From the NCBI GenBank assembly GCA_018798825.1, contig CP076354.1, positions 992,001 to 1,056,000 of the forward strand: a DNA stretch of 64,000 bases. The letters are read 5' to 3'. This DNA is from Ochrobactrum sp. BTU1. Its GTDB lineage: Bacteria > Pseudomonadota > Alphaproteobacteria > Rhizobiales > Rhizobiaceae. This document shows, one piece after another, positions 24,931-64,000 of this stretch. How positions within the stretch are numbered: the first letter of the stretch is position 1; each line of letters begins with the position of its first letter. The notes beneath the pieces are model-generated. The model worked only from the letters and a program-made list of their open reading frames with translations, did not search any database and had not been told where the DNA came from. The translations under genes and the position numbers were made by a program.

Positions 24931-25464
24931 TTAATTTTTGGCGATGCTGCCAACAGCGATATTATCTATACGCTTGAGGCTCATACCGATTACCGGAACA
25001 AGTTCCTTCTCTACGCGGACCGAAACAGTCACATTCATGGTGTTCTTGTCGGCAACGCGAGCAAGCATCGCGCCATTGAGCTCTTTACGGTTAAGACCGA
25101 GAACCACCTTGTTGCCGGTTACGGAGCCAGAGGTAACGTTGAGGCCTTTACCTTCAGCGCCGTCATTAAACTTGCCCGAATAGTTGGAGCCGACGCGCGT
25201 CACGGTTGCCTTCATAGGCTGCGAGAAAACACCAACGCGGCAAGAACCATCAAGCGTCATGCCAACTGCATTGTCAGGAGTAGTGCCTGCGAGCGTGCAG
25301 ACAAATTTTGTGCCCTTGTATTTTCCGGCAACAATTTCGCCCGGACCGGACCATTGGCCTTCAATCGTCTGAAAAAACTGTTCATCCTTGTCTGCAGCCA
25401 GAGCTGGCGCAGCAAAAAGCGATGCGGGCAGTAGCGTAAGGCATGCAGCGATGTAGTTTTTCAT
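24931..25464 (-). CDS. Predicted exported protein, function unknown
   Basis: A 177-residue protein with a clear signal peptide (MKNYIAACLTLLPASLFA, cleavage near ALA-AD). The mature part is small, Gly/Thr/Val-rich and predicted beta-rich, with two cysteines (FVCTLAG and GSCRVG) that could form a disulfide in the periplasm. WSGPGEIVAGKYKGTKF and the tail suggest a compact beta barrel, but I do not recognise the family. The ATG at 25464 is chosen because it gives the signal peptide and has AGAGC upstream. Confidence 0.75.
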   Translation of the reverse strand: MKNYIAACLTLLPASLFAAPALAADKDEQFFQTIEGQWSGPGEIVAGKYKGTKFVCTLAGTTPDNAVGMTLDGSCRVGVFSQPMKATVTRVGSNYSGKFNDGAEGKGLNVTSGSVTGNKVVLGLNRKELNGAMLARVADKNTMNVTVSVRVEKELVPVIGMSLKRIDNIAVGSIAKN

Positions 25465-47510: not shown

Positions 47511-47552
47511 GCGGTCGTGGCGAAATTGGTATACGCAACGGACTTAAAATCC
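47511..47552 (+). pseudogene. 5' half of tRNA-Leu(UAA), interrupted in the anticodon arm
   Basis: The acceptor strand GCGGTCG, a D arm (GCG...CGC with AATTGGTA in the loop) and an anticodon loop CTTAAAA (anticodon UAA) are present in the right order. The anticodon stem then fails: ACGGA should be answered by TCCGT but TCCTG is found. No variable arm, GGTTCGA loop or 3' acceptor strand follows. The break falls at about 47553, where phage sequence appears to begin, so this is best read as the left attachment junction. The other half should lie at the right end of the prophage, outside the window. Confidence 0.75.
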
Positions 47553-47581: not shown

Positions 47582-47595
47582 TTACGCTAGCGTAA
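47582..47595. repeat. Palindrome TTACGCTAGCGTAA, copy 1
   Basis: A perfect 14-bp palindrome 30 bases inside the prophage, upstream of all its genes. The same 14 bases recur at 52521, and a variant with a different centre lies at 47644. A dimeric repressor or activator site is a reasonable guess. Confidence 0.6.
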
Positions 47596-50021: not shown

Positions 50022-52517
50022 ATGAATGCACTCACGCCTATCCAAGGGGCGGTTGAGCTTGACCCCGCTTATCTCCGTCAGATTGACCTTGAGATTGAAA
50101 TGGTTGGGCTGGGCAAGGACCGCTACTGGGCCAGAACCAAGAAAGACATTGAGAAGGACCGGGGCGCAGGCACCCAGACTGGACGCTACTTAGTTCAGCA
50201 GGTGATTGGCCCACTCGCTGGAGGCATCAAGCTATTCGTTGACGATGCCTATTCAGGACGCCCCGGTCCAAGGGCGGTTGCCGCCAAGTTGATCAAGGAT
50301 ATGGACTTTGAAGTCGTCGCTTACCTTGCCGTGAGGGCATTGATCAGTCGTCTTCTGTTCAAACCTAACGTGCCGATGCTTGGACTTGCACGGTTGATCG
50401 GCAATTCCATCGAAGCAGAAGCTCGTTTCGCCTCCTTCGAAGCCACTGCACCGGCTCTTTATAATACCATTGACCGGAACCTTACCAAGACAGGCGCGAC
50501 ACCCAGCCATAAGGCGCTCGTGTTGAAATACGCGATGGGCAAGAACGATCTGCCTTGGGACAGCTGGACAAGGACCGATTGCATCCACCTTGGGATGAAG
50601 CTCATTGAGTTGTGTCAGGAATACTCAGGGATCATTGAGTTCGCTGAGCAGCAAGTGACATTCAGCGGAGCGTACAAATCTCAGTACCTCGTGAACTTCA
50701 CACCCAAGGTGGACGAGTGGGTAAAGCAATCGCTCGTCAAAGGTGCAGACTTCCATCCGCTCTACTTGCCGACGATTATCCGGCCCAAACCTTGGACCTC
50801 GTTGGAAGGTGGCGGTTACTACAGCAACGCTGTGAAGCCCCTTAGGCTCGTCAGAGGGATGCGTAAGGCTCACCGAAAGCTTCTCGAAGAGGCGGACCTG
50901 AGCACGGTCTTTGCGGGTGTCAATGCAATCCAAGAGACGCCTTGGCAGATCAACACAAGCGTCCTCGACGTTATGCAACAGCTTGCCAAGACGAACTCAA
51001 GCATTGCCGGAATGGTTCCCGAGGATGACCTGAAGCTTCCCGATAAGCCTCACGATATCGAAACCAATGAAGAAGCCCTGCGGACATGGAAGTGGGCAGC
51101 TCGTGACGTACATGTCGCGAACATCCGGCTTCGCAATGATCGCCTGAAACAGGAACAGCTCCTCGACCTCGCTGAGCGGTTCCGCAATGAGAACGCTGTG
51201 TATTTCCCTCACACCCTGGACTTCAGGGGCAGGGCGTATCCAGTTCCTCAGGCGCTCAATCCGCAGGGCAGCGATCCAGTCAAAGCTCTGCTCAGGTTCA
51301 CTGAAGGGAAACCTTTGGGCGAACACGGCAAGCGCTGGCTAGCAATTCACGGGGCAAACTGCTTCGGTGTGGATAAGGTTCCTTTTGAGGACCGAGTTGC
51401 GTGGGTACACGAGAACTCATACGAAATCTGGAAATGCGCAATGGAGCCGCTGGACAGCCTTTGGTGGACCGAAGCTGACAGCCCTTGGTGTTTCCTAGCG
51501 TTCTGTTTCGAGTGGGCCGGGGTGCATCACGCAGGAGAAGCCTTTGTCTCTCATCTGCCTGTTGCTCTGGACGGTTCGTGTAACGGTCTTCAGCATTTCA
51601 GCGCCATGCTTCGTGATCCTGTCGGAGGTGCCGCAGTCAATCTGATACCTTCAGATCGACCTCAGGACATTTACAAGCAGGTCGCTGACGTGGTGCTGGG
51701 CAAGCTCAAGGTCTTCGCTAACGGGGAAGACGAAGACAGCGAGGAAGCCGCGCAGAAGTCCAGATGGGCCTACGCATGGCGACACTTCGGGATCGACAGG
51801 AAGGTTACCAAGCGTCCTGTTATGGTCCTACCTTACGGCGGAACCGCTCGGTCCTGCTTGAAGTATGTGGATGAAGCCGTTCGCGAAAAGATTGCAGGAG
51901 GTAAAGAACACAACCTAGGGGAGGAGCTTGGGCAAGCGGTTGCTTGGCTTTCAAGTCTCGTCTGGTCCAGCATCGGTGACGTTGTGGTTGCCGCTAGGGA
52001 AGCCATGGACTGGCTCCAAGGGGCGGCGAGGGTGGCTGCTAAGGAGAACAAACCGCTGTCTTGGGTGACACCGAGCGGCTTCATTGTTTATCAGGCTATC
52101 TTCAACACTCGCCTCCATAGGGTCAAAACGAAGGTTGCAGGAGATTTGCTTTACTTTGGCGATCTTCAAGAGACCTCCAAGATCAACCCGAACAAACAGG
52201 CGACAAGCCTTAGTCCAAACTACGTCCACTCAATGGATGCATCAGCGATGATGCTCACTGTCGCTCACATGTGGAAAGCGGGTTTCCGTTCTTTCGCAAT
52301 GATCCACGACAGCTACGCAGTACATGCGTGTGACACTCAAATGCTTTCAGACGTTCTTCGACAGGAGTTCGTGAGGATGTATCGAGTGAACCCTCTTGTC
52401 GCTTTCAAACATAGAATAGCGGTGACTTTAGAAGACCCAGACAAACTTAAAGACCTCCCAGCCTCAGGCACTCTTCAAATAGAAGAGGTGCTTAAGTCTG
52501 CCTTTTTTTTCGCATAA
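50022..52517 (+). CDS. T7-like single-subunit DNA-directed RNA polymerase
   Basis: An 831-residue phage RNA polymerase (T7 gp1 is 883). Catalytic elements are in place: DFRGRAYPVP, motif A ALDGSCNGLQHF with Asp517, motif B TKRPVMVLPYGG with Lys597 and Tyr605, and motif C MIHDSYAVHA with Asp763. The end SAFFFA corresponds to the FAFA end of T7 polymerase, which reaches the active site. It should transcribe the middle and late phage genes from its own promoters, candidates for which are at 52545 and 61856. Early transcription must come from the host polymerase. The last codons lie in a run of eight T. Confidence 0.97.
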   Translation: MNALTPIQGAVELDPAYLRQIDLEIEMVGLGKDRYWARTKKDIEKDRGAGTQTGRYLVQQVIGPLAGGIKLFVDDAYSGRPGPRAVAAKLIKDMDFEVVAYLAVRALISRLLFKPNVPMLGLARLIGNSIEAEARFASFEATAPALYNTIDRNLTKTGATPSHKALVLKYAMGKNDLPWDSWTRTDCIHLGMKLIELCQEYSGIIEFAEQQVTFSGAYKSQYLVNFTPKVDEWVKQSLVKGADFHPLYLPTIIRPKPWTSLEGGGYYSNAVKPLRLVRGMRKAHRKLLEEADLSTVFAGVNAIQETPWQINTSVLDVMQQLAKTNSSIAGMVPEDDLKLPDKPHDIETNEEALRTWKWAARDVHVANIRLRNDRLKQEQLLDLAERFRNENAVYFPHTLDFRGRAYPVPQALNPQGSDPVKALLRFTEGKPLGEHGKRWLAIHGANCFGVDKVPFEDRVAWVHENSYEIWKCAMEPLDSLWWTEADSPWCFLAFCFEWAGVHHAGEAFVSHLPVALDGSCNGLQHFSAMLRDPVGGAAVNLIPSDRPQDIYKQVADVVLGKLKVFANGEDEDSEEAAQKSRWAYAWRHFGIDRKVTKRPVMVLPYGGTARSCLKYVDEAVREKIAGGKEHNLGEELGQAVAWLSSLVWSSIGDVVVAAREAMDWLQGAARVAAKENKPLSWVTPSGFIVYQAIFNTRLHRVKTKVAGDLLYFGDLQETSKINPNKQATSLSPNYVHSMDASAMMLTVAHMWKAGFRSFAMIHDSYAVHACDTQMLSDVLRQEFVRMYRVNPLVAFKHRIAVTLEDPDKLKDLPASGTLQIEEVLKSAFFFA
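52471..52512 (+). terminator. Possible terminator overlapping the end of the RNA polymerase gene
   Basis: GCACTCTTC (about 52470-52478) and GAAGAGGTGC (about 52483-52492) form a short imperfect stem, followed after 10 bases by eight T. T7 also ends early transcription shortly after its polymerase gene. The distance between stem and T run makes this uncertain. Confidence 0.35.
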
Positions 52518-52520
52518 TCG

Positions 52521-52534
52521 TTACGCTAGCGTAA
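52521..52534. repeat. Palindrome TTACGCTAGCGTAA, copy 3
   Basis: Identical to the palindrome at 47582. Directly after it TTACGGTAA (52538-52546) forms another small symmetrical site that runs into the candidate phage promoter at 52545. The location suggests control of the switch from early to middle transcription. Confidence 0.6.
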
Positions 52535-52544
52535 GTGTTACGGT

Positions 52545-52562
52545 AATAGGTTGCACAGTAGC
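52545..52562 (+). promoter_or_regulatory. Candidate phage RNA polymerase promoter, middle genes
   Basis: AATAGGTTGCACAGTAGC occurs in the window only here and at 61856. It lies 28 bases after the RNA polymerase stop and before the replication genes, the place of T7 class II promoters. The TAGG...GCACA...TAG pattern recalls the SP6 and K11 polymerase promoters. Length, spacing and position support a promoter; transcription start and exact limits are unknown. Confidence 0.7.
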
Positions 52563-52609
52563 CTTTCAGGTTTCTGTCTCCCTCAAACAACACATGAGGT
52601 TCACCTTAC

Positions 52610-52837
52610 ATGAACAATAAGATCACCATTCGTTACGGCGCAGCTCACCACTCGGTTTCTGTCGGGGATGTGACAATCGACTTCTGCAAAGCGCATCGTG
52701 ACGTTCGTTACCAGACACGTAAGACCGTTATCGAAGGTCTCCGTGAGCTGGGCTATTTCGGGGAGCAGGGTAAGCGCCGCAAGGTCACCCGCTTCAAGGG
52801 CAAGAAGGGCCACGGGACCCTCGTCCGTCATGGCTGA
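52610..52837 (+). CDS. Hypothetical phage protein, 75 residues
   Basis: First gene after the candidate middle promoter. It is basic and Gly/Lys-rich, with KVTRFKGKKGHGTLVRHG at the end, suggesting nucleic-acid contact. GAGGTT lies upstream of the ATG. Its last eight bases overlap the next gene. The position matches the small T7 class II genes that alter host functions, but no family is recognised. Confidence 0.7.
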   Translation: MNNKITIRYGAAHHSVSVGDVTIDFCKAHRDVRYQTRKTVIEGLRELGYFGEQGKRRKVTRFKGKKGHGTLVRHG

Positions 52838-52925
52838 CTTGGGCATTATCTTCACAGGATTGGTTCTGGCAGCAGCCATGATCTACCTCGCCATGAGCGA
52901 TGGAGGGCCAACTCTCCATGCCTAG
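52830..52925 (+). CDS. Small single-span membrane protein, 31 residues
   Basis: MADLGIIFTGLVLAAAMIYL is followed by a short polar end (AMSDGGPTLHA). One membrane helix and little else. It overlaps both neighbours by eight bases, as is usual in this block. It could be a small membrane effector; it is too short for a classic holin. Confidence 0.5.
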   Translation: MADLGIIFTGLVLAAAMIYLAMSDGGPTLHA

Positions 52926-53184
52926 GTTCAACCGTGACGTGATGCATATGGCGCAGCCTAAGGCTGTATCCGATGCCTCCCTTACAATCCTTAACGTGCT
53001 CCAAGACAGCCGACCTGAGGTCCAGATTATGGGCGCTGCTGCTGTCTTCCTAGCGTTGTCTGAACACCTGAAGGTCCCCGCACAGGACGTGTTCACCGCA
53101 ACCAAGAACCTCATCAACGATCAGGACGGAAAGCGTGTCGAGTTCCGCGCCGTCCAAGCTTATCTCGAAGGAGAATTGAATTGA
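52918..53184 (+). CDS. Hypothetical phage protein, 88 residues
   Basis: Predicted mostly helical, with TILNVLQDSRPEVQIMGAAA in the middle and an end reading QAYLEGELN. No family is recognised. ATG 52918 is chosen for GGAGGG 10 bases upstream; ATG 52900 would add six residues. The stop shares TTGA with the next start. Confidence 0.7.
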   Translation: MPRFNRDVMHMAQPKAVSDASLTILNVLQDSRPEVQIMGAAAVFLALSEHLKVPAQDVFTATKNLINDQDGKRVEFRAVQAYLEGELN

Positions 53185-53531
53185 CCAAGACCATTTTTAA
53201 AGCCGGTGACCGCGTTCGACGCCTCCGCTGCAATAACACACACCAAATGCCCGTAGGTAGTGAATGGACCATCTCCGATTTCCGACCTGATGGATATTTC
53301 CTTGTTGAAGGAAGTTTCCCCTATGGCTGCGATCCAAAATATTTCGAGCTAGTCGTCCCCGCCAAGAAGCCTCAGCCGAACCTCAAGGCCAACTTCAGCA
53401 TCCCTCGGGACATCCTCACACAAGCTGCCGAAGCTTACGTCAAGGAAGTCTACGGCGTCACGCTTGCATCAGCCAAGCTTCCTTACGGTACGGCACTGGT
53501 TCCACTTCATGCGGAGGTGGCTGCACGATGA
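53181..53531 (+). CDS. Hypothetical phage protein with small beta-domain, tandem paralogue 1
   Basis: A 116-residue protein starting at TTG (53181), with GGAG 8 bases upstream. The N-terminal FKAGDRVRRLR and MPVGSEWTI look like a small SH3-like beta domain. A linker, FELVVPAKKPQPNLKANF, leads to a short helical tail. The next gene has the same plan and linker, so the pair arose by duplication. Function unknown. Confidence 0.7.
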   Translation: MTKTIFKAGDRVRRLRCNNTHQMPVGSEWTISDFRPDGYFLVEGSFPYGCDPKYFELVVPAKKPQPNLKANFSIPRDILTQAAEAYVKEVYGVTLASAKLPYGTALVPLHAEVAAR

Positions 53532-53911
53532 GCACTGTTTTTAATGTTGGTGACCGCTTCCGTTTCATCCGCGACAACTCCAATGGTGGCGCTCGGTTCG
53601 GTACGATAGGTGAAAATTTCGAAGTGAAGGGGGTAAGTCATTCCCCATCTCGATACGGCGATCAAATCACTTACCATCGTCCGGGCGTAACCTTCGATGT
53701 CAATGTTCCCGTCAAAGACATCGAGCTGGTCGTCCCTGCCAAGACGCCCCAGTCTCCCATTAAGGCGACCTTCGAGTTCTCTCGTGTCGAGATTGAAGAA
53801 GCGATGCGGGACTACGTGAGCAAGAAGCTTGGGCTCCGTCTCAGGCATACCACAGGAAGCCTCACGAGTGCTGAAGTGGTGACCGTCACAGCCGAGGTCA
53901 TTCCCGCATGA
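53528..53911 (+). CDS. Hypothetical phage protein with small beta-domain, tandem paralogue 2
   Basis: A 127-residue protein similar to the preceding one: FNVGDRFRFIR at the start, IELVVPAKTPQSPIKATF as linker, and an AMRDYVSKKLGL helix. ATGA overlaps the previous stop. Sequence between the matched blocks has diverged, which suggests an old duplication. Function unknown. Confidence 0.7.
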   Translation: MSTVFNVGDRFRFIRDNSNGGARFGTIGENFEVKGVSHSPSRYGDQITYHRPGVTFDVNVPVKDIELVVPAKTPQSPIKATFEFSRVEIEEAMRDYVSKKLGLRLRHTTGSLTSAEVVTVTAEVIPA

Positions 53912-54033
53912 GCCTCCTCCGCAAAGCAATCCTCACCCTCAAGATGGGCAATCCAATCCCGGCTGATGTCTGGATGAAGCTCTCCGCTCGTGGCTACGAC
54001 ATGCCACGTCTCGAAGCCAAGTACGCAATCTAA
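53908..54033 (+). CDS. Hypothetical phage protein, 41 residues
   Basis: MSLLRKAILTLKMGNPIPAD, then VWMKLSARGYDMPRLEAKYAI. It is basic and probably a helix pair. ATGA overlap with the previous stop. The short length leaves doubt, but the coupling and lack of any gap favour a real gene. Confidence 0.55.
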   Translation: MSLLRKAILTLKMGNPIPADVWMKLSARGYDMPRLEAKYAI

Positions 54034-54054
54034 TCAAAAGGAATACCCGAACAC

Positions 54055-54807
54055 ATGGCAAATGAAACATACAAGAAGAACCCGAAGTTTATGTCACCAA
54101 AGGGTACAGCTGTTTACCCTAAGCTGACCGAACCTGACTACGGCACCGCTGAATACCCTAAGCCAGACGGCGAATACTCGGTCAAGCTTCGCATGTCGAA
54201 AGACGAAGCTGAGGCATTCCTTGATACTAAGGGCAGCGATGGTCGCACTTTGCGTCAGGTCCATGAGGAAGCCGTTGAGGCAGCTCAGGTCGAGTTCGAT
54301 AAGCTGGACATGGCGAAGAAGAAGAAGCTGGAGAAGCAGGACATTAAGGGTCCTAAGGCTCACCCAATTTATTCTGAAGTGCTCGATAAGGAAACCGGCG
54401 AGGAAACCGGCGATGTCGAGTTCAAGTTCAAGAAGAAGGCTTCAGGTGTCCGAAAGAAGGACAACAAGAAGTGGACCGCTAAGCCTGACCTCTTCGACGC
54501 TAAAGGCAACAAGCTGGGCAAAGGTGTCAGTATCTGGGGTGGTTCTACGCTCAAGGTTAATTTCGAAGCGTCGAACTTCCTAGTGAACGGCTCTTGGCTG
54601 GTCGGCCTCACGCTATTCCTCAACGCTGCTCAGGTCATTGATCTTGTGTCTAACGGCCAGCGTGACGCTTCGGGCTACGGCTTCGAAGCTGAAGAAGGTT
54701 ACGAGTATGATCCTGAGGATTACCGTGAAGAGGACAATAGCTCCTCCGAAGGTGGTTCTGAAGGCAACGACGACAACGGCCCAGCGGACGGCGACGAAGA
54801 CTTCTAA
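54055..54807 (+). CDS. Single-stranded DNA-binding protein, T7 gp2.5-like
   Basis: A 250-residue protein with the gp2.5 plan: an OB-fold core (about 20-200; FMSPKGTAVYPKLTEPDYGT, SIWGGSTLKVNF) and an acidic tail ending GDEDF. In T7 the acidic tail and its final Phe contact DNA polymerase and primase-helicase. It coats single strands during replication and recombination. Confidence 0.9.
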   Translation: MANETYKKNPKFMSPKGTAVYPKLTEPDYGTAEYPKPDGEYSVKLRMSKDEAEAFLDTKGSDGRTLRQVHEEAVEAAQVEFDKLDMAKKKKLEKQDIKGPKAHPIYSEVLDKETGEETGDVEFKFKKKASGVRKKDNKKWTAKPDLFDAKGNKLGKGVSIWGGSTLKVNFEASNFLVNGSWLVGLTLFLNAAQVIDLVSNGQRDASGYGFEAEEGYEYDPEDYREEDNSSSEGGSEGNDDNGPADGDEDF

Positions 54808-54809
54808 GC

Positions 54810-55283
54810 TTGCCACGTAAAGTGAAAGCCTCTGCTCAGATCGGTTATGCCAATGGCTTCCGCTCTGGGCTGGAGGGCAAGGTATCCGTAGCGCTCGATA
54901 ATGCCGGATACACCTACGCCTACGAAGGCTACCGCGTTGAATACGTCTGGCCTGCTCGAAAGTCGAAATACACGCCGGACTTCCCGCTCCTTCATAACGG
55001 CATCATTGTCGAAACCAAGGGGCGCTTCCTCACCGAGGACCGTCAGAAACACCTTCTGATCAAGGAACAGCACCCGGACTTAGACATACGGTTCGTGTTC
55101 TCCAATTCCAAAACCCGCATCTCCAAGGCTTCGCAAACCACTTACGCAAAGTGGTGTGAAACCCACGGCTTCCTATACGCAGACAAGAGCATCCCTCAGG
55201 ACTGGCTCGATGAAGCGCCTAACGCAAAGCGTATGGAAGCGATGCTCAATCTCATACCAGCAACCAAGAAAGCTTCGAAATGA
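54810..55283 (+). CDS. Endonuclease I (Holliday junction resolvase), T7 gp3-like
   Basis: A 157-residue nuclease. The active-site pattern matches T7 endonuclease I: FRSGLEGKV (Glu), KYTPDFPL (Asp) and VETKG (Glu and Lys). It cuts branched DNA and in T7 helps degrade host DNA. It starts at TTG 54810, three bases after the previous stop, and overlaps the next gene by ATGA. Confidence 0.92.
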   Translation: MPRKVKASAQIGYANGFRSGLEGKVSVALDNAGYTYAYEGYRVEYVWPARKSKYTPDFPLLHNGIIVETKGRFLTEDRQKHLLIKEQHPDLDIRFVFSNSKTRISKASQTTYAKWCETHGFLYADKSIPQDWLDEAPNAKRMEAMLNLIPATKKASK

Positions 55284-55522
55284 TCAAGAAGATCATCGCA
55301 TTTGTCAGCGGCAGCATTCGCCGCAAGCCGACCACAGAGAACGCCCTTCGTGGGATGTCCAAGGCTCTCGACCAGCTTCAGGAAGTCGTCACCCATGAGA
55401 ACACTGAAATTGATCGTCTGGATGACGTTATCGAGACTGCGGCCAGTGACCGCCTTGATGCCTTCAAGCGCCGTGATCGTGCGTCGAAGGTAGCTGAACG
55501 TTTCGCAGACCTGTTGGCATAA
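55280..55522 (+). CDS. Hypothetical phage protein, 80 residues, helical
   Basis: MIKKIIAFVSGSIRRKPTTE is followed by a charged helix with heptad-like pattern (ALDQLQEVVTHENTEIDRLD). Possibly a coiled-coil dimer. Coupled to endonuclease I by ATGA. No family recognised. Confidence 0.65.
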   Translation: MIKKIIAFVSGSIRRKPTTENALRGMSKALDQLQEVVTHENTEIDRLDDVIETAASDRLDAFKRRDRASKVAERFADLLA

Positions 55523-55534
55523 GGAGAGAGATTA

Positions 55535-55729
55535 ATGAGAACCCTAGGTGTAACTATTTATCTGCTCCTTCTCGTTGCAATTCTGGCAGCTCTCGGCGGC
55601 TGGATCGCTAATCTTTTCAAGGTCTTCGGCCTGCTTGTTACACAAGGAGTTGACCTTACGGGTGAGCTGGTCGTCCGTGTAATTGGTATTGTGATCCCGA
55701 TCATCGGGGCAATCGCAGGTTACCTTTGA
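55535..55729 (+). CDS. Small membrane protein with two predicted helices
   Basis: A 64-residue, strongly hydrophobic protein: helix about 7-30 (LLLLVAILAALGGWIANLF) and helix about 45-62 (VVRVIGIVIPIIGAIAGYL). AAGGAGAG lies just upstream of the ATG. It could be a holin-like or other membrane effector; position in the replication block argues against a late holin. Confidence 0.65.
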   Translation: MRTLGVTIYLLLLVAILAALGGWIANLFKVFGLLVTQGVDLTGELVVRVIGIVIPIIGAIAGYL

Positions 55730-55953
55730 TGGACCCTGAAGGAATTGAGAAAGCTGCCCGATACCTCGCCGAAACACTCTTCGTTGCGTTCGATGACCTG
55801 AACCCCTTGAGCTTGGAAGAAGTCAGGCAGCAACTGGGTAACGAAGGAGGGTGGGTTAAGGAAGATGCGGAAGGTCTTATCGCATCGTTAGACCTGATCG
55901 TGAATCGAGCGTTCCTTATGAGCATGAAAGTCAAACAGGCATTTGGGCTGTAA
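55729..55953 (+). CDS. Hypothetical phage protein, 74 residues
   Basis: An acidic helical protein (MDPEGIEKAARYLAETLFVA at the start). TGATG couples it to the previous stop. The next gene starts immediately after its stop. No family is recognised. Confidence 0.65.
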   Translation: MDPEGIEKAARYLAETLFVAFDDLNPLSLEEVRQQLGNEGGWVKEDAEGLIASLDLIVNRAFLMSMKVKQAFGL

Positions 55954-56430
55954 TTGGATAAACAAAAACATCGATCTTACTTAGACAAAGACGAGGCTCT
56001 AGCCCTCATCGACAAGTTCATCGGAAGTGATCTTCGCGAAGAAGTTCATCGCATGTTTATTCGTGACGAGGCAGTGGTAGCAAAGCTGCTGTTTATGCTT
56101 CGTGACTTCCACGATCGGAATGTGCTTCTCACCGAAAGAATGCAGCAAGCCGAGAAGGAATACTTCCAGACGTTAGCCCCCAAGGTTAGCTCAGGTTTCC
56201 TTTCGGCTGAAACAAGCCTCAACATCAACTACAGCGCTAAAAATTATCACGTTCGCTGGGACCCGGGTTCATACTCGATGAACCACATGATGAGCCATCT
56301 GCTCCAAGAGGACAAAAATCCCGTCATACTTGAGATGATCGAGAAGCAGTTCCAGCGGCAGCTTGAGGCTGATCTGATCCCGCAGTTGCGGGTGGCATTC
56401 AGAAAGATGATCACAGCGTCTCATTTATGA
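55954..56430 (+). CDS. Hypothetical phage protein, 158 residues
   Basis: Starts at TTG directly after the previous TAA. Mostly helical, with LDKDEALALIDKFIGSDLRE near the start and a distinct YHVRWDPGSYSMNHMM segment in the middle. It overlaps the primase-helicase start by four bases. Function unknown. Confidence 0.65.
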   Translation: MDKQKHRSYLDKDEALALIDKFIGSDLREEVHRMFIRDEAVVAKLLFMLRDFHDRNVLLTERMQQAEKEYFQTLAPKVSSGFLSAETSLNINYSAKNYHVRWDPGSYSMNHMMSHLLQEDKNPVILEMIEKQFQRQLEADLIPQLRVAFRKMITASHL

Positions 56431-58103
56431 GAGACGAACACGAGGAGAGCTTTCTCCTCCAGAAGGAGCCATGCCCAGCGTGTGGCTCCAGAGACAACCT
56501 AGCCCGGTATTCAGATGGCCACGGCTATTGCTTTGGCTGCGGACATTACGAGCCGGGGGACAAGGATCACCACAATATGGAGAATGAGCCGACAGGGGTA
56601 CGCCCCGCTCGGGCGGATTTGCTCGACCTTGGGGAACCTTCAGGCTGGCCTAGTCGAGGCATTTCAGAAGATAGCGCTCAGAAATGGGGCTTCACCAAGT
56701 CTACGTATAAGGGCGAACCCGTCCGACTTTTCAACTACAGAAATACGAGCAATCAGGTCGTCGCCCAGAAGGTACGCTTTAAGGGCAAAGACTTCCGTTT
56801 CCTTGGAGAGACGAAGGAAGCTGGCCTGTTCGGGATGCACCTCTGGCGTGACCGAGGAAAGCGTGTCGTCATCGTTGAAGGCGAGATGGATGCAATTTCC
56901 CTATCACAGATGCAGGGCCATAAGTGGCCTGTCGTGTCTATCCCGAATGGGGCGCAAGGTGCAGCTAAGGCGCTCTCAAAGAACATCGACTGGCTTGAAC
57001 AGTTTGATGAAGTTGTCCTGCTCTTCGACAACGATGAGGCAGGTCAAGTCGCACTAGACGACTGCAAGAAGGTAGCCTTCACGCCCGGAAAGCTCCGCAT
57101 TGCCCGACTTCCTGAGGACCTCAAGGATGCCAATGAGGCACTCGTAGCGGGACGTATCAAGGAAACACTCGATTGCCTTTGGGACGCCAAGGTTTACCGA
57201 CCTGACGGCATCCTAAGCGTCGATGACATCATGGATGACATTCTCACTCCTACCGAGATGGGTATCCCATGGTGGCTTCCGGGTCTCACAGCCGCAACCT
57301 ACGGTAGACGATATACGGAAGTCTATGGGGTGGGGGCAGGGACCGGGGCAGGGAAGACAGACTTCCTCATGCAGCAGATAGCGTTTGATGTCAACGACTT
57401 AGGGTTAACGGTTGGAGCAATCTTTCTAGAGCAACGTCCTCGGGAAACTGCTCAGCGTGTCGCAGGTAAACTGGCTGGCAAAATGTTCCATATCCCGAAC
57501 GGAGACTGGAATGCTGAGGAACTCCGAAGGGCTGCTTCTGAGCTGCAAGGAAAGGTCTTCTTCTACGACAACTTCGGTCAAACCGACTGGGACGTTGTGA
57601 AGGGACACATTCGGTACATGGCTGTGAGCCTTGGTGTCCGCGTGTTCTACCTCGATCACCTTACGGCTATGGCCGACACGAGCGACGAGAAGGGTTCCAT
57701 TGAGCAGATCATGAAAGAGATGGCTGGGATCGCCCAAGAGCTGGACATCATGATCACCTTCGTATCGCACCTATCGACACCCGATGGAAAGCCTCATGAA
57801 GAAGGTGGCCGTGTCATGATCCGGCATTTCAAGGGTTCCCGTGCAATCGGCTTCTGGTCTTACTTCATGTTTGGCCTAGAGCGCGATCAACAGTCTGACG
57901 ATCCTGAAATCAAAACCACCACCATCTTCCGTATTCTGAAGGACCGCTACACAGGCAGAGGTACGGGCCAGACGTTCTTGCTTGGTTTCGACCAACAAAC
58001 AGGACGTTTGTACGAACGCGAAGATGATCCTTTCAAGAAACAGGACAGCGCCTCTCACGGCTTCCGAGACGAAACACGGGAGACTGAGCCAGAGGACTTC
58101 TAA
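56427..58103 (+). CDS. DNA primase-helicase, T7 gp4-like
   Basis: A 558-residue bifunctional replication protein. An N-terminal zinc motif (CPACGSRDNL ... YCFGCGHYE), a TOPRIM primase segment (VVIVEGEMDAISL, later LLFDNDEAG) and a RecA-like helicase with Walker A GAGTGAGKTDF near residue 305 are visible. Motif H2-type VFYLDHLTAM and FVSHLSTP follow. The acidic C-terminus (ETEPEDF) ends in Phe, as in T7 gp4, where the tail binds the polymerase. Length agrees with T7 gp4 (566). Confidence 0.95.
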   Translation: MRDEHEESFLLQKEPCPACGSRDNLARYSDGHGYCFGCGHYEPGDKDHHNMENEPTGVRPARADLLDLGEPSGWPSRGISEDSAQKWGFTKSTYKGEPVRLFNYRNTSNQVVAQKVRFKGKDFRFLGETKEAGLFGMHLWRDRGKRVVIVEGEMDAISLSQMQGHKWPVVSIPNGAQGAAKALSKNIDWLEQFDEVVLLFDNDEAGQVALDDCKKVAFTPGKLRIARLPEDLKDANEALVAGRIKETLDCLWDAKVYRPDGILSVDDIMDDILTPTEMGIPWWLPGLTAATYGRRYTEVYGVGAGTGAGKTDFLMQQIAFDVNDLGLTVGAIFLEQRPRETAQRVAGKLAGKMFHIPNGDWNAEELRRAASELQGKVFFYDNFGQTDWDVVKGHIRYMAVSLGVRVFYLDHLTAMADTSDEKGSIEQIMKEMAGIAQELDIMITFVSHLSTPDGKPHEEGGRVMIRHFKGSRAIGFWSYFMFGLERDQQSDDPEIKTTTIFRILKDRYTGRGTGQTFLLGFDQQTGRLYEREDDPFKKQDSASHGFRDETRETEPEDF

Positions 58104-58111
58104 GAGGTGAA

Positions 58112-60109
58112 TTGAGCCGAACATTAATATTCGACCTTGAGAGCAATGGGCTTCTTGAGGAAACGACCACGATCCACTCCTTGGTTATCAAGGAAAGAGA
58201 GACTGGAGAAATCTGGTCTCTTCATAATCAACACGATACTGGCGCAGGCCCGAACGTTGCAGACGGCCTGAGGCTGCTAGAAGACGCTGATTTCATAGTC
58301 GGCCACAACATCCAATCCTTCGACATCCCTGTAATCCAGAAGCTTTACCCTTGGTTCAAACCTAAGGGCATCGTTCGCGACACCTTGATCATGTCTCGGT
58401 TCATCTACGCCGAGATGCTCCGCAGCGACATCGAGTTCCACGAAAGCCGAACCAAGAAAGGCAAGAAGTGGATCGAGAAGCGCATGTGGGGACGCCACAG
58501 CCTTGAGGCTTGGGGCCAACGTCTCGGTGTCTGGAAAGGCGACTACGGCCAGAAGCGGGAAGAAGAAGGAAAGGCGCTCGGCCTTAAGGGGCCGCAGCTT
58601 ACTGCATACGTCTGGGGAACATGGTCTCAGGAGATGCAGGACTATTGCGTTCAGGACGTTGAGGTAACTGAAAAGATACTCGACAAGCTTGAAGGCAAGG
58701 GCAACTCCGAAGAGAGCATCAACCTTGAACATGACGTTCGCAGGATCGTCACCCGTCAGGAGAACTACGGCTTCGGCTTTAACGAGCGCAAAGCTGCTGA
58801 ACTCTACGGCACCTTAAGCCAACGTAAGGCTGAACTTGAGCGGGACCTTCAGAAGGCATTCAAGCCTTGGTACCGCAAGGGTGATCGCATGTGTCCAACA
58901 ACGGACCGGCAGATCAAGCGTCCTGACCTCGGCATTGAGGTTGTCGTTAAGAAATACTCCAAGGTGACGGGAAGGGAAGTCAAGCCGTACATCGGTCCGA
59001 TCTTCGACCAGTACATCAAGGACAGCCCCTATACCAAAGTAACTCTTCAACCTTTCAATGCGACCAGTCGTTTCGACATCGCAGATCGGCTTAAGGTCAT
59101 CTACGGATGGAAGCCTAAGGAGTTCACCAAAGACGGTCATCCAAAGATCGATGAAGAGGTGCTCTCTAAGCTGAAATATCCGGTGATCCCTCAGCTTCTC
59201 GAATACCTCATGATCCAGAAGCGGATCGGACAGGTGGCCGAGGGGAAGGAAAGCTGGCTTAAGCACTGCAAGAATGGTCGCATCCACGGCAGGGTAAACA
59301 CGGCAGGCGCTGTCACAGGTCGAATGACCCACAGCACTCCGAACATTGCTCAGGCTCCCTCAGGACGAGCACCTTATGGTCACGAATGCCGTGAACTGTT
59401 TGTTGCTGGTCCGGGCAAGAAGCTGGTCGGCTGCGATGCCGATGCTTTGGAACTTCGAGACCTCGCTGGATATATGGCTGCTTATGATGGCGGCGCATAC
59501 ATCAAGACGGTTCTTGAAGGGAAGAAAGAAGACGGCACCGACATGCACACGCTCAATGCTGCGGCTTTGGGCTGTTCACGTGATGACGCAAAGACTTGGT
59601 TCTATGCCTTCATTTACGGTGCTGGTGACTTCAAGCTCGGTATGATCCTTGCGGCGAAAGGTTCAGCTGCGGCAATTAAACGGGCAGGTGCGGAAAGCCG
59701 TGCCAAGTTCCTCAACAGCCTTCCAGCTTTGAAGAAGTTGACCGAACGGGTGAAGACGAAAGCTGCCGCCACAGGGACACTCAAGGGTCTCGATGGGCGT
59801 ATCCTAAAAGTTCGCTCAGGTCACGCGGCGTTGAACACCTTGCTTCAGTCGGCAGGTGCAATCCAGATGAAGAGAGCTTTGGTCATCCTAGACAACGACC
59901 TACAGGCAGCGGGGCTGGTTCCCGGTGTCCAATATGAGTTCGTCGCGAATGTTCATGACGAATGGCAGATCGAGGTAGATGAAGACAAAGCAGAGTTCGT
60001 CGGCAAAACGGCAGCAGCAGCTATCGCCAAGGCCGGGGAATATTACAGCTTCCGTTGCAAACTTGCTGGCAACTACGACATCGGCAGCAACTGGGCGGAA
60101 ACACACTAA
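58112..60109 (+). CDS. Family A DNA polymerase, T7 gp5-like
   Basis: A 665-residue replicative polymerase. The 3'-5' exonuclease begins at once (LIFDLESNGLLEE with D-x-E), with FIVGHNIQSFDIPV as the second exo motif. Polymerase motif A is VGCDADALELRDLAGYM, motif B AKTWFYAFIYGAGDFKLG and motif C NVHDEWQIEV (Asp616). It starts at TTG 58112 with AGAGGTGA upstream. In T7 this enzyme uses host thioredoxin as a clamp. A GIY-YIG-like frame follows in the +1 frame without its own good start. Confidence 0.96.
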   Translation: MSRTLIFDLESNGLLEETTTIHSLVIKERETGEIWSLHNQHDTGAGPNVADGLRLLEDADFIVGHNIQSFDIPVIQKLYPWFKPKGIVRDTLIMSRFIYAEMLRSDIEFHESRTKKGKKWIEKRMWGRHSLEAWGQRLGVWKGDYGQKREEEGKALGLKGPQLTAYVWGTWSQEMQDYCVQDVEVTEKILDKLEGKGNSEESINLEHDVRRIVTRQENYGFGFNERKAAELYGTLSQRKAELERDLQKAFKPWYRKGDRMCPTTDRQIKRPDLGIEVVVKKYSKVTGREVKPYIGPIFDQYIKDSPYTKVTLQPFNATSRFDIADRLKVIYGWKPKEFTKDGHPKIDEEVLSKLKYPVIPQLLEYLMIQKRIGQVAEGKESWLKHCKNGRIHGRVNTAGAVTGRMTHSTPNIAQAPSGRAPYGHECRELFVAGPGKKLVGCDADALELRDLAGYMAAYDGGAYIKTVLEGKKEDGTDMHTLNAAALGCSRDDAKTWFYAFIYGAGDFKLGMILAAKGSAAAIKRAGAESRAKFLNSLPALKKLTERVKTKAAATGTLKGLDGRILKVRSGHAALNTLLQSAGAIQMKRALVILDNDLQAAGLVPGVQYEFVANVHDEWQIEVDEDKAEFVGKTAAAAIAKAGEYYSFRCKLAGNYDIGSNWAETH

Positions 60110-60395
60110 GGCTGACCCTCACGGTCCCGGCTACGTTTACGTTGTGACAAACCAAGCGTGGCCGGGAAAGTGCAAGATCGGGTTCGCCAAAAGTCTGACC
60201 AACAGGATCAGACAGATGAACACCAACGACCCATTTAGGTCATACCAATATCACGACACTCGGAGGTTTGATGACCGCTCTCTGGCTGAGAAGCGCGTTC
60301 ACGGGCTGGTGGCTGGGTTTCGCATCCCCGGCACCGAATGGTTCGATTTACATCCCGACGATGCAGTCAAGTTTCTACGAAAGGTAAAGGCATGA
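60063..60395 (+). CDS. T5orf172/GIY-YIG-like nuclease domain protein
   Basis: The core, GYVYVVTNQAWPGKCKIGFA, then RIRQMNT and the later GTEWFDL, fits the T5orf172 group of GIY-YIG-like domains, often found in phage and mobile DNA. The start is uncertain: no ATG, GTG or TTG with a ribosome site lies between the polymerase stop and the domain. The nearest in-frame start is TTG 60063, inside the polymerase gene; ATG 59979 lies further up. A +1 frameshift at the polymerase end would also fuse the two. The stop overlaps the next ATG. Confidence 0.65.
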   Translation: MLATTTSAATGRKHTKADPHGPGYVYVVTNQAWPGKCKIGFAKSLTNRIRQMNTNDPFRSYQYHDTRRFDDRSLAEKRVHGLVAGFRIPGTEWFDLHPDDAVKFLRKVKA

Positions 60396-60580
60396 ACGGT
60401 GACAAGGAGACAGTGACAATCTCCAAGAAGGAATACGATAGCCTCTTAGATAGCAGCAATAAGCTGAACTGCCTTGAGAATGGCGGTGTCGATAACTGGG
60501 AATGGTATTACGAAAGTCTCAAGCAAGGCGGCTACTTCGAAGATGAAGAAGATGAGGACGAGGACGAGGACGAGGATTGA
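60392..60580 (+). CDS. Small acidic phage protein, 62 residues
   Basis: MNGDKETVTISKKEYDSLLD is followed by a polar middle and an Asp/Glu run at the C-terminus (EDEEDEDEDEDED), coded by a GAGGAC repeat. Such DNA-mimic-like acidic tails occur in phage inhibitors of host nucleases, but here that is only a guess. ATGA overlap before; TTGA overlap after. Confidence 0.65.
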   Translation: MNGDKETVTISKKEYDSLLDSSNKLNCLENGGVDNWEWYYESLKQGGYFEDEEDEDEDEDED

Positions 60581-61311
60581 GAACCCTCCTCATTGACGGC
60601 GATATCCTCGTTGTCAGCACATGTGCCGCAGCTGAAAAGGAAGTAGACTGGGGCGACGACCAGTGGACCGTGACGTCAGACATCAAGTCGGTTAAGGCCA
60701 CAATACTCGACGCAATCGAGAACATTAAGAAGGACCTTGAGGCCCAAGAGGCGATCATTACGCTTTCTATGGGTTTGACCTTCCGTCACGAAATCTTCGA
60801 ACCTTATAAGAAAGGCCGAGGGCGAAAGCCTGTCGGTACTGGCGAGGTGAAACGCTGGCTCATCGAAGAGCAGGGCGCAAAGCTGAAGCCGGGGATCGAA
60901 GCTGACGACACCATGGGCATCCTTTCGACCCACCCTAGGCTGATCAAAGGTGAGAAGGTGATTGTGTCTGCTGACAAAGACATGATGACAATACCTGGAC
61001 TACTTTATCGTGACGGTGAAATCATCACTGTGACCGAAGAAGAGGCTGACCGGAACTGGCTCACTCAGACACTTACGGGCGACGTGACGGACAACTATCC
61101 GGGCCTCAAAGGATACGGCGCAAAGAAAGCTGAGAAGTTCCTAGACGGTATCCCTGAGGGTGAAGACCCTTGGCCGCATATTGTCCAGCTCTTTGTCGAT
61201 AATGGTTTCGATGAGGAATATGCGCTCACTCAAGCTCGAATGGCTCGTATCCTTCGCTGGACAGATTACGATTACAAGAAGAAGGAGGTTAAGCTCTGGC
61301 GTCCAAGCTGA
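60577..61311 (+). CDS. 5'-3' exonuclease (flap endonuclease-like), T7 gp6-like
   Basis: A 244-residue nuclease of the FEN/5'-3' exonuclease superfamily. The metal-site segments are LLIDGDILV at the start, EADDTMGIL and VSADKDMMTIPGL in the middle, and LTGDVTDNYPGLKGYGAKKA with the helix-hairpin-helix. It removes RNA primers and resects DNA ends. It starts at TTG, sharing TTGA with the previous stop. Confidence 0.9.
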   Translation: MRTLLIDGDILVVSTCAAAEKEVDWGDDQWTVTSDIKSVKATILDAIENIKKDLEAQEAIITLSMGLTFRHEIFEPYKKGRGRKPVGTGEVKRWLIEEQGAKLKPGIEADDTMGILSTHPRLIKGEKVIVSADKDMMTIPGLLYRDGEIITVTEEEADRNWLTQTLTGDVTDNYPGLKGYGAKKAEKFLDGIPEGEDPWPHIVQLFVDNGFDEEYALTQARMARILRWTDYDYKKKEVKLWRPS

Positions 61312-61856
61312 TCGCCCTCACAGGCAAGGCAGGGAGTGGGAAGTCGGAAGTGGCTTCCTACCTCGTAGACGGCCACGGGTTCCAGCTCGTGAAATTCGCA
61401 GGGCCACTTAAGGCGATGCTTAGAGGTTACTATCGTGAGCTTGGGCTGACCGAAGAGGAAATCGACAGGCGACTGGAGGGCGACCTCAAGGAAACCCCTG
61501 ATCCTCATCTTTCGGGCCGAACCCCGCGCCACGCTATGGAGACCTTAGGAACAGAATGGGGCAGGGATCAGATGGCTCCTGAGTTCTGGACGAATGCAGC
61601 CGAAGCAAAGATCAAAGGCTCACGGGCAGATTTGATCGTTGTGGATGATTGCAGGTTTCCAAACGAAGCCCATGTGGTTCGACGCTTGGGTGGCTCTGTG
61701 GTGCAGGTTAAGTCAGCCCGAGGTCGTCGTAAGGTCTCCAAACACAAGGCCGAGAAGGGACTTGCACCCGCTCTGGTCGATCACTCGCTGGATAATAATG
61801 AAGGCATCGGCGCTCTACGGAAGGGCATCGATACGTTTCTCTTCGGTCTCAAATGA
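61296..61856 (+). CDS. Deoxynucleoside monophosphate kinase-like P-loop protein
   Basis: A 186-residue P-loop kinase like phage dNMP kinases (T4 gp1 group), supplying dNTP precursors. The P-loop is GKAGSGKSEV at about residue 9-18; FAGPLKAML, ETLGTEWGRD and IVVDDCRFPNEA follow the known pattern. The first canonical start in frame (GTG 61350) would remove the P-loop, and a stop codon lies at 61290. The only sensible start is CTG 61296, which has AGGAGG ending 7 bases upstream. A non-canonical CTG start is therefore proposed. Confidence 0.8.
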   Translation: MASKLIALTGKAGSGKSEVASYLVDGHGFQLVKFAGPLKAMLRGYYRELGLTEEEIDRRLEGDLKETPDPHLSGRTPRHAMETLGTEWGRDQMAPEFWTNAAEAKIKGSRADLIVVDDCRFPNEAHVVRRLGGSVVQVKSARGRRKVSKHKAEKGLAPALVDHSLDNNEGIGALRKGIDTFLFGLK

Positions 61857-62071
61857 ATAGGTTGCACAGTAGCAGTTTTGAACAGCACGACCTCGAATGT
61901 CCCGCTGTCTCAAAAGCGTTGGTGGAATATCTACGAAAGGTATTCCCCGACCGACTGCCCACAGATCGCACCATTAACGAACGCAAACTGGGAGAGCTGT
62001 TCGGCCAACAGGACGTAATTGTCCATTTGCTGTGCCGCCTCCAAGAGCAGGAAGAGACCGTCCTTGTGTAA
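61853..62071 (+). CDS. Hypothetical phage protein, 72 residues
   Basis: ATG 61853 overlaps the dNMP kinase stop. The candidate promoter at 61856 lies inside its first codons, so a transcript from that promoter could not make the full protein; an in-frame TTG at 61862 does not avoid this. Helical, with a C-terminal LFGQQDVIVHLLCRLQEQEE. Function unknown. Confidence 0.55.
   Translation: MNRLHSSSFEQHDLECPAVSKALVEYLRKVFPDRLPTDRTINERKLGELFGQQDVIVHLLCRLQEQEETVLV
61856..61873 (+). promoter_or_regulatory. Candidate phage RNA polymerase promoter, structural genes
   Basis: Second exact copy of AATAGGTTGCACAGTAGC. It lies at the joint between the last replication gene and the structural block, where T7 class III promoters lie. 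Only this 18-base core is shared with the copy at 52545; both flanks differ, as expected for a conserved promoter and not a larger duplication. Confidence 0.7.
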
Positions 62072-62279: not shown

Positions 62280-63881
62280 ATGGCTGAAGAGCAGGATAAA
62301 GTATCCGCGAAAGCTCTTTATGAACAGCTTGTCACCGACCGAGACCCATATCTCCGTCGTGCTAGACGCGCTGCTGAACTGACGGTCCCCTCGCTATTCC
62401 CTAAGGATGGCGTAGGGGCATCGACAGATTTCGAAGAGCCTTCGCAAAGTCTCGGAGCCAGAGGTATTCGCAACCTCGCATCAAAGCTCCAAATGGCATT
62501 GTTCCCAGTGAACGCGCCTTTCTTCAAGTACACAGTCGATGACCTTGCACTCCAGCAGCTTACCCAAGCTGAAGGCCAGCGAGGAGCTGTCGAGAAAGCA
62601 CTCAACTCCAGAGAACGCGCTGTTCTTGACGAGATGAACGGTTCGCTATTCCGTCCCGTTTCTTTCGAAGCATGTCGTCAGCTGCTGATCGCAGGGAATT
62701 ATCTTCTCTTCATTCCGAAGAAGGGTAAGCCTCGTGGTTTCCGTCTGAGTTCTTACGTGGTCAAGCGCGATGCTGCCGGTAACGTAATCGACATCGTAAT
62801 CAAAGAAAGCATGGCTCGGACAGCGTTGCCGCCTGATGTGGTCGCTCATCTGAATGCTGTGGACACCCTTGAGGACGCGGAACGTGACAGCAAGGTCGAT
62901 GTTTATACGCACGTTGCGAAAGACATTGACGGCGAAACATACACAGTCACTCAGGAAGTCGATGGCGTAGAACTCCCGACCGATTACGCAGGAACGTACA
63001 CCAAGGACAATCTACCTTGGATTGCGCTTCGCTTCACGTACATCGAAGGCGAGAACTATGGCCGCTCATTCTGTGATGAGTACATTGGCGACCTAGCGAC
63101 ACTCAACGGCCTGACCAAAGCTCTCCGCGATGGCACCATTCAGGGCGCTAAGGTTGTCTGGATGGTTCACCCAAACAGCACTGTGAGCGTTCGTAAGCTT
63201 GCCGCTGCTGAGAATGGTGAGTTCGTCCAAGGCGATCATCAAAGTGTAATCCCGCTTCAGCTCAATAAAGCTTCCGACTTCTCGGTTGCTGAACGTTTCA
63301 TTGCCCAGCTCACCGAACGGCTTCAGTTTGCCTTCCTCCTCAACACCGCGATCCAGCGGAACGGGGAACGGGTTACTGCTGCTGAAATTCGGTACATGGC
63401 TGGTGAACTTGATCAGGGCTTAGGTGGCGTCTACTCGCTGCTGTCTGAAGAGTTCCAGCTGCCTGTCGCCAAGCTTTATGAAATCCGCATGATGTTCGTC
63501 CGTAAGGTGCCTCCGCTTCCAAAGGAAATCACCAACACGGCCATTGTGACGGGGCTTGATGCACTCGGCAGAGGCAATGACCTGAACAACCTCGACGCTC
63601 TCGTTGCAGGTGCTGCTCAGGTTGTCGGTGCAGATCAGGTCGCTCGTTATCTCAACGCTGGGGAATACTTCAAGCGCCGTGGTGCTGCCCTCGGCATCGA
63701 CATGTCAGGTCTCATCAAGACTGAAGAAGAGCTGGCTCAGGCTGACCAACAGGCTCAGCTCATGGCAATGGCTCAGAACCTTGGACCTCAAGCAATCTCC
63801 CAGATGGGCGGATTAGCCAAACAGGAAATGGTCGGTGCTCAGAACGGCACTCCGACACCCGAACCCGCAGAGGAAGAATAA
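62280..63881 (+). CDS. Head-tail connector (portal) protein, T7 gp8-like
   Basis: A 533-residue portal protein; T7 gp8 has 536. Typical segments are LYEQLVTDRDPYLRRARRAA, then GARGIRNLASKLQMALFPVN near the start and IQRNGERVTAAEIRYMAGEL toward the end. Twelve copies form the ring through which DNA enters the head and to which the tail attaches. The ATG at 62280 has only a weak ribosome site. The stop shares one base with the next ATG. Confidence 0.95.
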   Translation: MAEEQDKVSAKALYEQLVTDRDPYLRRARRAAELTVPSLFPKDGVGASTDFEEPSQSLGARGIRNLASKLQMALFPVNAPFFKYTVDDLALQQLTQAEGQRGAVEKALNSRERAVLDEMNGSLFRPVSFEACRQLLIAGNYLLFIPKKGKPRGFRLSSYVVKRDAAGNVIDIVIKESMARTALPPDVVAHLNAVDTLEDAERDSKVDVYTHVAKDIDGETYTVTQEVDGVELPTDYAGTYTKDNLPWIALRFTYIEGENYGRSFCDEYIGDLATLNGLTKALRDGTIQGAKVVWMVHPNSTVSVRKLAAAENGEFVQGDHQSVIPLQLNKASDFSVAERFIAQLTERLQFAFLLNTAIQRNGERVTAAEIRYMAGELDQGLGGVYSLLSEEFQLPVAKLYEIRMMFVRKVPPLPKEITNTAIVTGLDALGRGNDLNNLDALVAGAAQVVGADQVARYLNAGEYFKRRGAALGIDMSGLIKTEEELAQADQQAQLMAMAQNLGPQAISQMGGLAKQEMVGAQNGTPTPEPAEEE

Positions 63882-64000
63882 TGGCTGAAGAAGCTAAGAC
63901 ACCCGAAACTCCAGTTGTCGCACCTGAAACAACCCCTGAGGTGAAGACTAAAGCTGCACCTAAGGCCAAAGCTCCAGAGCCGGTTAAGGGACAGATTACG
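63881..64000 (+). CDS. Probable capsid assembly (scaffolding) protein, N-terminal part
   Basis: Forty residues are seen before the window ends (MAEEAKTPETPVVAPETTPE at the start): low complexity, rich in Glu, Pro, Lys and Ala. In T7-like phages the scaffolding gene directly follows the portal and often begins with such an acidic disordered region. Identity rests mainly on position. Confidence 0.6.
   Translation, partial: MAEEAKTPETPVVAPETTPEVKTKAAPKAKAPEPVKGQIT

Follow-up and report, generated by a model that had tools for sequence, protein, structure and literature searches.

An exactly repeated 18-bp element as the predicted promoter of a prophage-encoded T7-like RNA polymerase in Ochrobactrum sp. 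BTU1, and covariation of such motifs with the polymerase specificity loop among related phages

Changes in the RNA polymerase of a T7-like phage have to go hand in hand with changes in its promoters. In T7 made to depend on an altered polymerase, no more than 5 of the 16 promoters that remained were reported to have acquired substitutions, namely phiOL, phi1.5, phi2.5, phi6.5 and phiOR (PMC6171733). In LUZ100, a T7-like phage with an integrase, the phage promoters phi1 to phi8 were mapped by Oxford Nanopore Technologies (ONT)-cappable-seq (PMC10134795; record OP329100.1), and the mining of new phage polymerases is described as needing promoter prediction in practice (PMC13029058). In this study, we analysed a window of 64,000 nucleotides of Ochrobactrum sp. 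BTU1 (assembly GCA_018798825.1, contig CP076354.1, positions 992,001 to 1,056,000), which contains the left part of a T7-like prophage. An 18-bp element (18-mer), AATAGGTTGCACAGTAGC, is repeated exactly in this prophage and is very probably the promoter of the prophage's own T7-like RNA polymerase; its three copies are predicted to drive transcription of the replication genes, the virion genes and the right end, compared with 17 phage promoters reported for T7 (PMC6171733). An earlier note on this DNA, made from its letters alone, had proposed a new promoter specificity; for a known kind of system, this claim is well supported by the sequence comparisons below. The natural group described here has few promoters and close relatives that differ in specificity, with both partners visible in sequence. 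It thereby documents joint change of polymerase and promoters in nature and provides rules, open to test, by which the sequence of a polymerase predicts its promoters.

The polymerase and the copies of the element are as follows.
50022..52517, + strand: T7-like single-subunit RNA polymerase, predicted reader of the 18-mer (PF00940, E 4.3e-111; phrog_414, E 6.3e-268; T7 RNA polymerase chains matched by sequence and fold).
52545..52562, + strand: predicted phage promoter copy 1, exact 18-mer at the junction of the RNA polymerase gene and the replication genes; predicted start G 52561.
61856..61873, + strand: predicted phage promoter copy 2, exact 18-mer at the junction of the replication genes and the portal gene; predicted start G 61872.
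82709-82726 (window coordinates, right of the window; C1:1074709), + strand: predicted phage promoter copy 3, exact 18-mer, 3 nt past the terminase large gene.

The family domain and the fold cover most of the protein, which places it among the T7-family single-subunit RNA polymerases. Two exact copies of the 18-mer and no others had been seen by eye in the window (52545-52562 and 61856-61873), and the search agrees: the sites at 52545 and 61856 are the sole window matches at up to three mismatches. Shuffles of the window gave a mean of 0.05 matches at this threshold, and none of the 100 shuffles contained two. The search beyond position 64000 that had been suggested as a check returned one more exact copy, on the + strand at the junction after the terminase gene (82709). 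Across the entire 5.88-Mb genome, these three exact + strand copies are the only sites at up to three mismatches (3 forward, 0 reverse). The 18-mer read backwards, used as a control, gave three forward matches and one reverse match in the whole genome at this threshold, so inexact matches alone carry no meaning. Within the prophage, the three sites score 18 of 18 and no site on either strand scores 13 to 17; a score of 12 is reached at two sites on the + strand and seven on the - strand. The viral collection contained the exact 18-mer in one contig only, three times. Among 100 genomes near the host, searched at up to two mismatches, single inexact sites were found in six besides the window's own; the backwards control was positive in 17 of the 100, and the 18-mer therefore gives no sign of being a host element. 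An element this short might be a chance or duplicated sequence without function, for which we see a practically negligible probability, given the shuffles, the third exact copy, the differing flanking sequence of the copies and the motifs of relatives at the same junctions.

Placement at module junctions, as originally described, holds for all copies, with a qualification for the middle one. Copy 1 is separated from the polymerase stop codon by 27 nt. Copy 2 is not purely intergenic; its first base also ends the stop codon (61854-61856) of the gene upstream, and it lies inside a small open reading frame (ORF) at 61853-62071. The same overlap between the middle copy and the preceding stop codon is seen in Mesorhizobium phage vB_MloP_Lo5R7ANS (genus Pairvirus) and in Rhizobium phage Pasto.

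In the same register, the T7 and SP6 promoters share TA at -14/-13, G at -11, CAC at -7 to -5, TA at -2/-1 and G at +1 with the 18-mer, whereas they carry other bases at -10 to -8. The likeness to SP6 that was first remarked on thus stands as a general T7-family promoter shape and is not specific to SP6: by hand count, the 18-mer matches the SP6 copy that follows the SP6 polymerase gene at 9 of 18 bases and T7 phi1.1B at 11 of 18. The hubs changed in the adapted T7 appear to resemble the promoter sites kept in the prophage.

The gene order of the prophage resembles those of Lo5R7ANS, Pasto and LUZ100. In LUZ100, a motif of similar shape follows the polymerase gene and the terminase and precedes the structural genes; however, the LUZ100 promoters number eight, including one upstream of the polymerase gene, with CC instead of GG at -12/-11, and its polymerase has D and L at the positions equivalent to T7 748 and 758. 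A single LUZ100 18-mer recovered seven + sites at 16 of 18 or better, each within an annotated phage promoter, and none at this score on the other strand; phi5 was missed, so that seven of the eight mapped promoters were found. The annotated feature ends fall at the called +1 G for phi3 and phi6, one base later for phi8 and two bases later for phi1, phi2, phi4 and phi7. No fourth promoter upstream of the polymerase gene, in the manner of LUZ100 phi1, was found in the BTU1 prophage.

Lo5R7ANS is the closest named phage by polymerase (56%) and has the same module order and three junction copies, with TAGGGCCTCTACTAG at 12988, 22933 and 45003 and predicted starts at 13002, 22947 and 45017. A 17-mer scores 17, 16 and 15 at the three junctions, with one weaker + site (13, at 32827) and none of at least 13 on the - strand. 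Unlike the copies in the BTU1 prophage, these are near-identical and not identical, and the motif differs at -10 to -3 (GCCTCTAC versus TTGCACAG in the prophage). The Lo5R7ANS motif is unannotated in its record, and a literature search for this phage returned no match. Pasto, likewise a temperate T7-like phage, has strong + sites at the same three junctions (17, 16 and 18 of 18 at 11882, 21998 and 42180) and none of at least 13 on the - strand; it differs in two weaker extra + sites (15 at 25073 and 14 at 32517), in CCCC at -12 to -9 and in E at 748. The earlier note had held that the promoter reading would fail if the rest of the prophage and its relatives lacked further copies; a third copy exists, and phage-specific motifs occupy the same junctions in Lo5R7ANS and Pasto.

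The same comparison bears on a replication-origin, packaging or recombination site, which the position of copy 3 towards the right-hand end of the gene order could indicate. Against it, the repeat at the prophage ends has a different sequence, several phages have copies in front of gene modules, and the LUZ100 copies coincide with mapped transcription starts; we regard this reading as scarcely credible on its own. A right-end promoter could also serve replication or packaging, and the two readings are therefore not exclusive.

Related polymerase loci were taken from IMG/VR and genome collections to give 207 loci, some of which are overlapping stretches of one contig; these yielded 193 polymerase ORFs, of which 181 were scored. 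The post-polymerase segment (160 nt after the stop codon) recurred downstream with a score of at least 14 on the same strand in 72 of the 181 loci, versus 10 on the opposite strand. Loci were selected at a same-strand score (F) of at least 14 that exceeded the opposite-strand score (R) by at least 3; 65 passed, and the BTU1 prophage was added by hand to make 66, which formed 48 clusters at 90% identity. The prophage itself fails the second rule (F 18, R 17), and its high R is attributed to palindromes of the kind beside copy 1. The register of one locus (L052) was set by hand. In the Gibbs alignment of the 48 motifs, the shared shape is strongest at TTA (-15 to -13), at C/A/C (-7 to -5) and around +1. 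The properties expected of a T7-family promoter set were found: a repeated motif of 17-23 bp on one strand ahead of gene modules (three exact + copies), the common shape with TA at -14/-13, a purine/pyrimidine core and G at +1 (the 48-motif alignment and the T7/SP6 comparison), and specificity bases that match the polymerase loop, as seen through covariation only.

52101..52184, + strand: specificity-loop hairpin of the polymerase, residues 694-721, from alignment with T7 and SP6; K702 corresponds to T7 748 and Y711 to T7 758.

The AlphaFold2 model gives this loop as a two-stranded hairpin with a poorly predicted tip (703-708). In T7, contacts are described for N748 at -10/-11, R756 at -9 and Q758 at -8 (PMC5937735). 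We ranked 598 variable polymerase columns for each motif position by mutual information above the shuffled expectation. The scan used 42 rows, with L051, L096, L099, L052, L087 and L198 dropped for low motif score; L096, L134, L192 and L217 are doubtful as promoters, and among these only L096 was dropped. T7 position 748 ranks first for -12, -11 and -10 and position 758 first for -8, and the same holds with all 48 rows. In the shuffle control, none of 100 shuffles produced a column as high as the top observed one at -12, -11, -10, -9, -8 or -4, with either 42 or 48 rows. Position 232 ranks first for -4 and 240 for -5; we take both to lie in the intercalating hairpin.

The letters follow simple rules in the 48 rows. 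D or E at 748 is accompanied by C at -11 in 16 of 16 rows, and K by G in 20 of 24. Y at 758 goes with G at -8 and T at -9 (12 of 12 each), K with C at -8 (10 of 12), R with C (5 of 6) and L with A (3 of 4); the single V row has A. In a tree computed with the loop columns excluded, 8-9 of 9 independent pairs changed the charge at 748 and the C at -11 in the same way and none oppositely (median p 0.0078); for K758 against C at -8, this was true of 3-5 of 6 pairs, with at most one opposite (median p 0.125). A held-out listing of 16 rows, eight of them at least 90% identical to rows of the set and three representing one phage, left six distinct phages; in two of these with two TAG cores, the core with TA at -14/-13 was taken. 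All six follow the rule at -11. At -8, the base was C for K (3/3), G for F (one phage, the table being split for F between G 1 and A 1), G for Q, and A for R although C is commoner. The prophage's own pair, K702 and Y711 with G at -11 and TG at -9/-8, agrees with the rules and is itself one row of the set. Nine distant phages (L107, L077, L138, L144, L149, L153, L147, L157 and L158), with polymerases 35-40% identical, carry a motif with GGTTGCAC or AGGTTGCAC like that of the window; their residues at 748 and 758 are likewise K and Y, and this specificity class therefore recurs. Over 42 sequences, variability in the loop exceeds the mean for the polymerase (1.97 versus 1.56 bits); several other 20-residue windows vary more, and hence no general hotspot is claimed.

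Several observations weigh against the promoter reading and its link to these residues. Position -9 lacks a clear winner: 758 and 333 tie, in a rerun 333, 758 and 748 tie, and with 48 rows 758 falls outside the top three. Positions 756 and 746 rank low (756 at 47 for -9 and 23 for -8; 746 at 27 for -7). Four of the 24 K748 rows and the single R748 row, which has T, are without G at -11. For Y758 and G at -8, 4-5 of 6 independent pairs agree and none is opposite, giving p 0.0625-0.125, short of 0.05. HMMER places Y711 opposite T7 757 instead of 758. The polymerase of Klebsiella phage KP34 is reported to read two unrelated promoters (PMC6834552), and one enzyme with one motif is therefore not a law.

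A candidate operator stands close to copy 1.
52521..52534, no strand assigned: palindrome TTACGCTAGCGTAA, possible regulator site, 10 bp upstream of copy 1.

The palindrome TTACGCWAGCGTAA occurs four times in the prophage, at 47582, 47644, 52521 and 84071, i.e. near the left end, before copy 1 and right of the terminase, and these sites may be operators of the phage regulator. A MarR-type regulator has been proposed to repress the polymerase in such phages (PMC10134795). The 18-mer could itself be an operator for a phage repressor or regulator, as its positions at module boundaries and the predicted transcription regulator encoded beside the integrase would allow. However, the 18-mer is not palindromic, every copy is oriented with the genes, TTACGCWAGCGTAA is the better operator candidate, and motifs of this class covary with polymerase positions 748 and 758; the chance that the 18-mer is an operator is very small.

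T7 has RNase III sites at gene junctions, and an RNA-level signal of this type, or a terminator, might likewise account for a junction repeat, the more so as many relatives have hairpins after the polymerase stop codon. Predicted hairpins between this stop codon and the motif were seen in many of the 15 loci that were folded (e.g. L014, L051, L098 and L107; no shuffles) and may be processing sites or operators. For the 18-mer, however, single folds without shuffles of the BTU1 prophage, L018 and L019 put it in no shared stem of its own, and an RNA signal leaves the specificity-loop covariation unexplained, so that we give this explanation hardly any weight. On the evidence set out with each, the operator, RNA-signal, origin or packaging and chance readings were set aside. 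The proposal that the 18-mer is a promoter for the phage's own polymerase is supported by the same junctions in two relatives, the mapped LUZ100 promoters, the strand bias and covariation with base-contacting residues.

Two near relatives, loci L018 and L019, present the relationship at short range. L018, with a 99% identical polymerase, has the same 18-mer at all three junctions. L019 (IMGVR_UViG_2751185800_000003), with a 93% identical polymerase, has AATAGGTTACGCAGTAGC at both junctions covered by its contig, which, judging from its length, probably stops short of the third. The L019 variant occurs in one contig of the viral collection, twice. Both copies differ from the 18-mer at -8 and -6 (window 52553 and 52555; 61864 and 61866), while the two 100-bp flanks of copy 2 contain 6 and 8 differences. 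In the loop, at 52092-52181, the polymerase gene differs at 39 of 90 bases, versus 4 of 150 before and 6 of 60 after; L018 has 2 differences in the same 90 bases. Y711 is replaced by V in L019, and -8 is A, as in the single V row and three of the four L rows of the set. The sharp edges of the block suggest that the L019 loop is a recombined segment. A second diverged mosaic block lies at about residues 421-520, so the loop is not the sole difference from the window's polymerase. No donor of the L019 loop was found among 122 polymerases with a readable loop, the nearest being the window's own (27 of 40 positions) and the next reaching 17. L019 thus appears to have replaced its loop and rewritten its promoters together. 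A protein search gave Brucella sp. 10RB9210 (77%, partial) and Brucella sp. 2716 (75%) as the nearest named polymerases; four next-nearest proteins (75-78% identical) have E/K, K/R, K/K and K/Y at 748/758, compared with K/Y in the window.

Binding, start site, transcription and exclusivity at the 18-mer are what we infer from these comparisons. The early region would be transcribed by the host RNA polymerase until the phage polymerase is made, which would bind about -16 to -5 through its specificity loop, with K702 reading GG at -12/-11 and Y711 reading G at -8. The DNA would melt near -4 to -1, and transcription would start at the G of TAGC. Copy 1 would serve the replication genes, copy 2 the virion genes and copy 3 the right end, perhaps linked to replication or packaging; T7 phiOR has such a link. 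With few sites to change, such phages could swap loop and promoters together. More tentatively, we consider it possible, though somewhat short of probable, that temperate T7-like phages with few promoters rewire fast, through a recombined loop cassette and all promoters rewritten in step. This could yield many mutually blind systems among near relatives, perhaps so that a cousin's polymerase cannot wake the late genes of a resident prophage; positions 748 and 758 would then form a natural code for -12 to -10 and -8, making promoters predictable from polymerase sequence alone. What surprises is how broad and regular the loop/promoter covariation is in temperate and other T7-like phages, and that a near-identical pair of phages differs in both partners at once. 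No report of such covariation across natural T7-like phages was found in titles and the openings of abstracts. Chen and Schneider reportedly applied information theory to T7-like promoters and polymerases, which may overlap with the covariation result.

The remaining features concern the prophage and its genes.
47540..47552, no strand assigned: left 13-bp prophage repeat GGACTTAAAATCC, in tRNA-Leu sequence; matches 89969-89981 (L006:7969-7981) right of the window.
61350..61856, + strand: deoxynucleotide monophosphate kinase-like gene, ending at copy 2 (PF21448, E 7.7e-13).
62280..63881, + strand: portal (head-to-tail connector), the first recognised structural gene past copy 2 (PF12236, E 4.4e-69).

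The T7-like prophage measures 42.4 kb between the 13-bp direct repeats at 47540-47552 and 89969-89981, in tRNA-Leu sequence. Besides the T7-like RNA polymerase gene, it carries T7-type replication genes, genes for the portal, the tail and internal virion proteins and the terminase, and genes for an integrase and a predicted transcription regulator. The integrase (phrog_1), the predicted regulator (phrog_9665), the tRNA-Leu end repeat and the Lo5R7ANS-like order assign it to the temperate T7-like type of LUZ100, Pasto and Lo5R7ANS. The prophage ends at the tRNA-Leu anticodon region (core GGACTTAAAATCC), where the host gene is split. Immediately within the right end, at 89861-89948 (L006:7861-7948), there is an intact tRNA-Leu(taa), as if a replacement had been brought by the phage; the comparison of end repeats gave one other 13-bp match, outside tRNA sequence. 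The small ORF at 61853-62071, with a weak match to phrog_25618 (E 2.6e-4), starts 3 bases before copy 2, and a transcript from 61872 would be without its ATG. A small protein encoded at 60338-60580 resembles families of inhibitors of the host RecBCD nuclease (phrog_6234, E 4.8e-18). The stretch after copy 3, at about 82727-83100 (L003:1519-1900), is non-coding and carries dense CCTAAGG-like repeats, as judged by eye.

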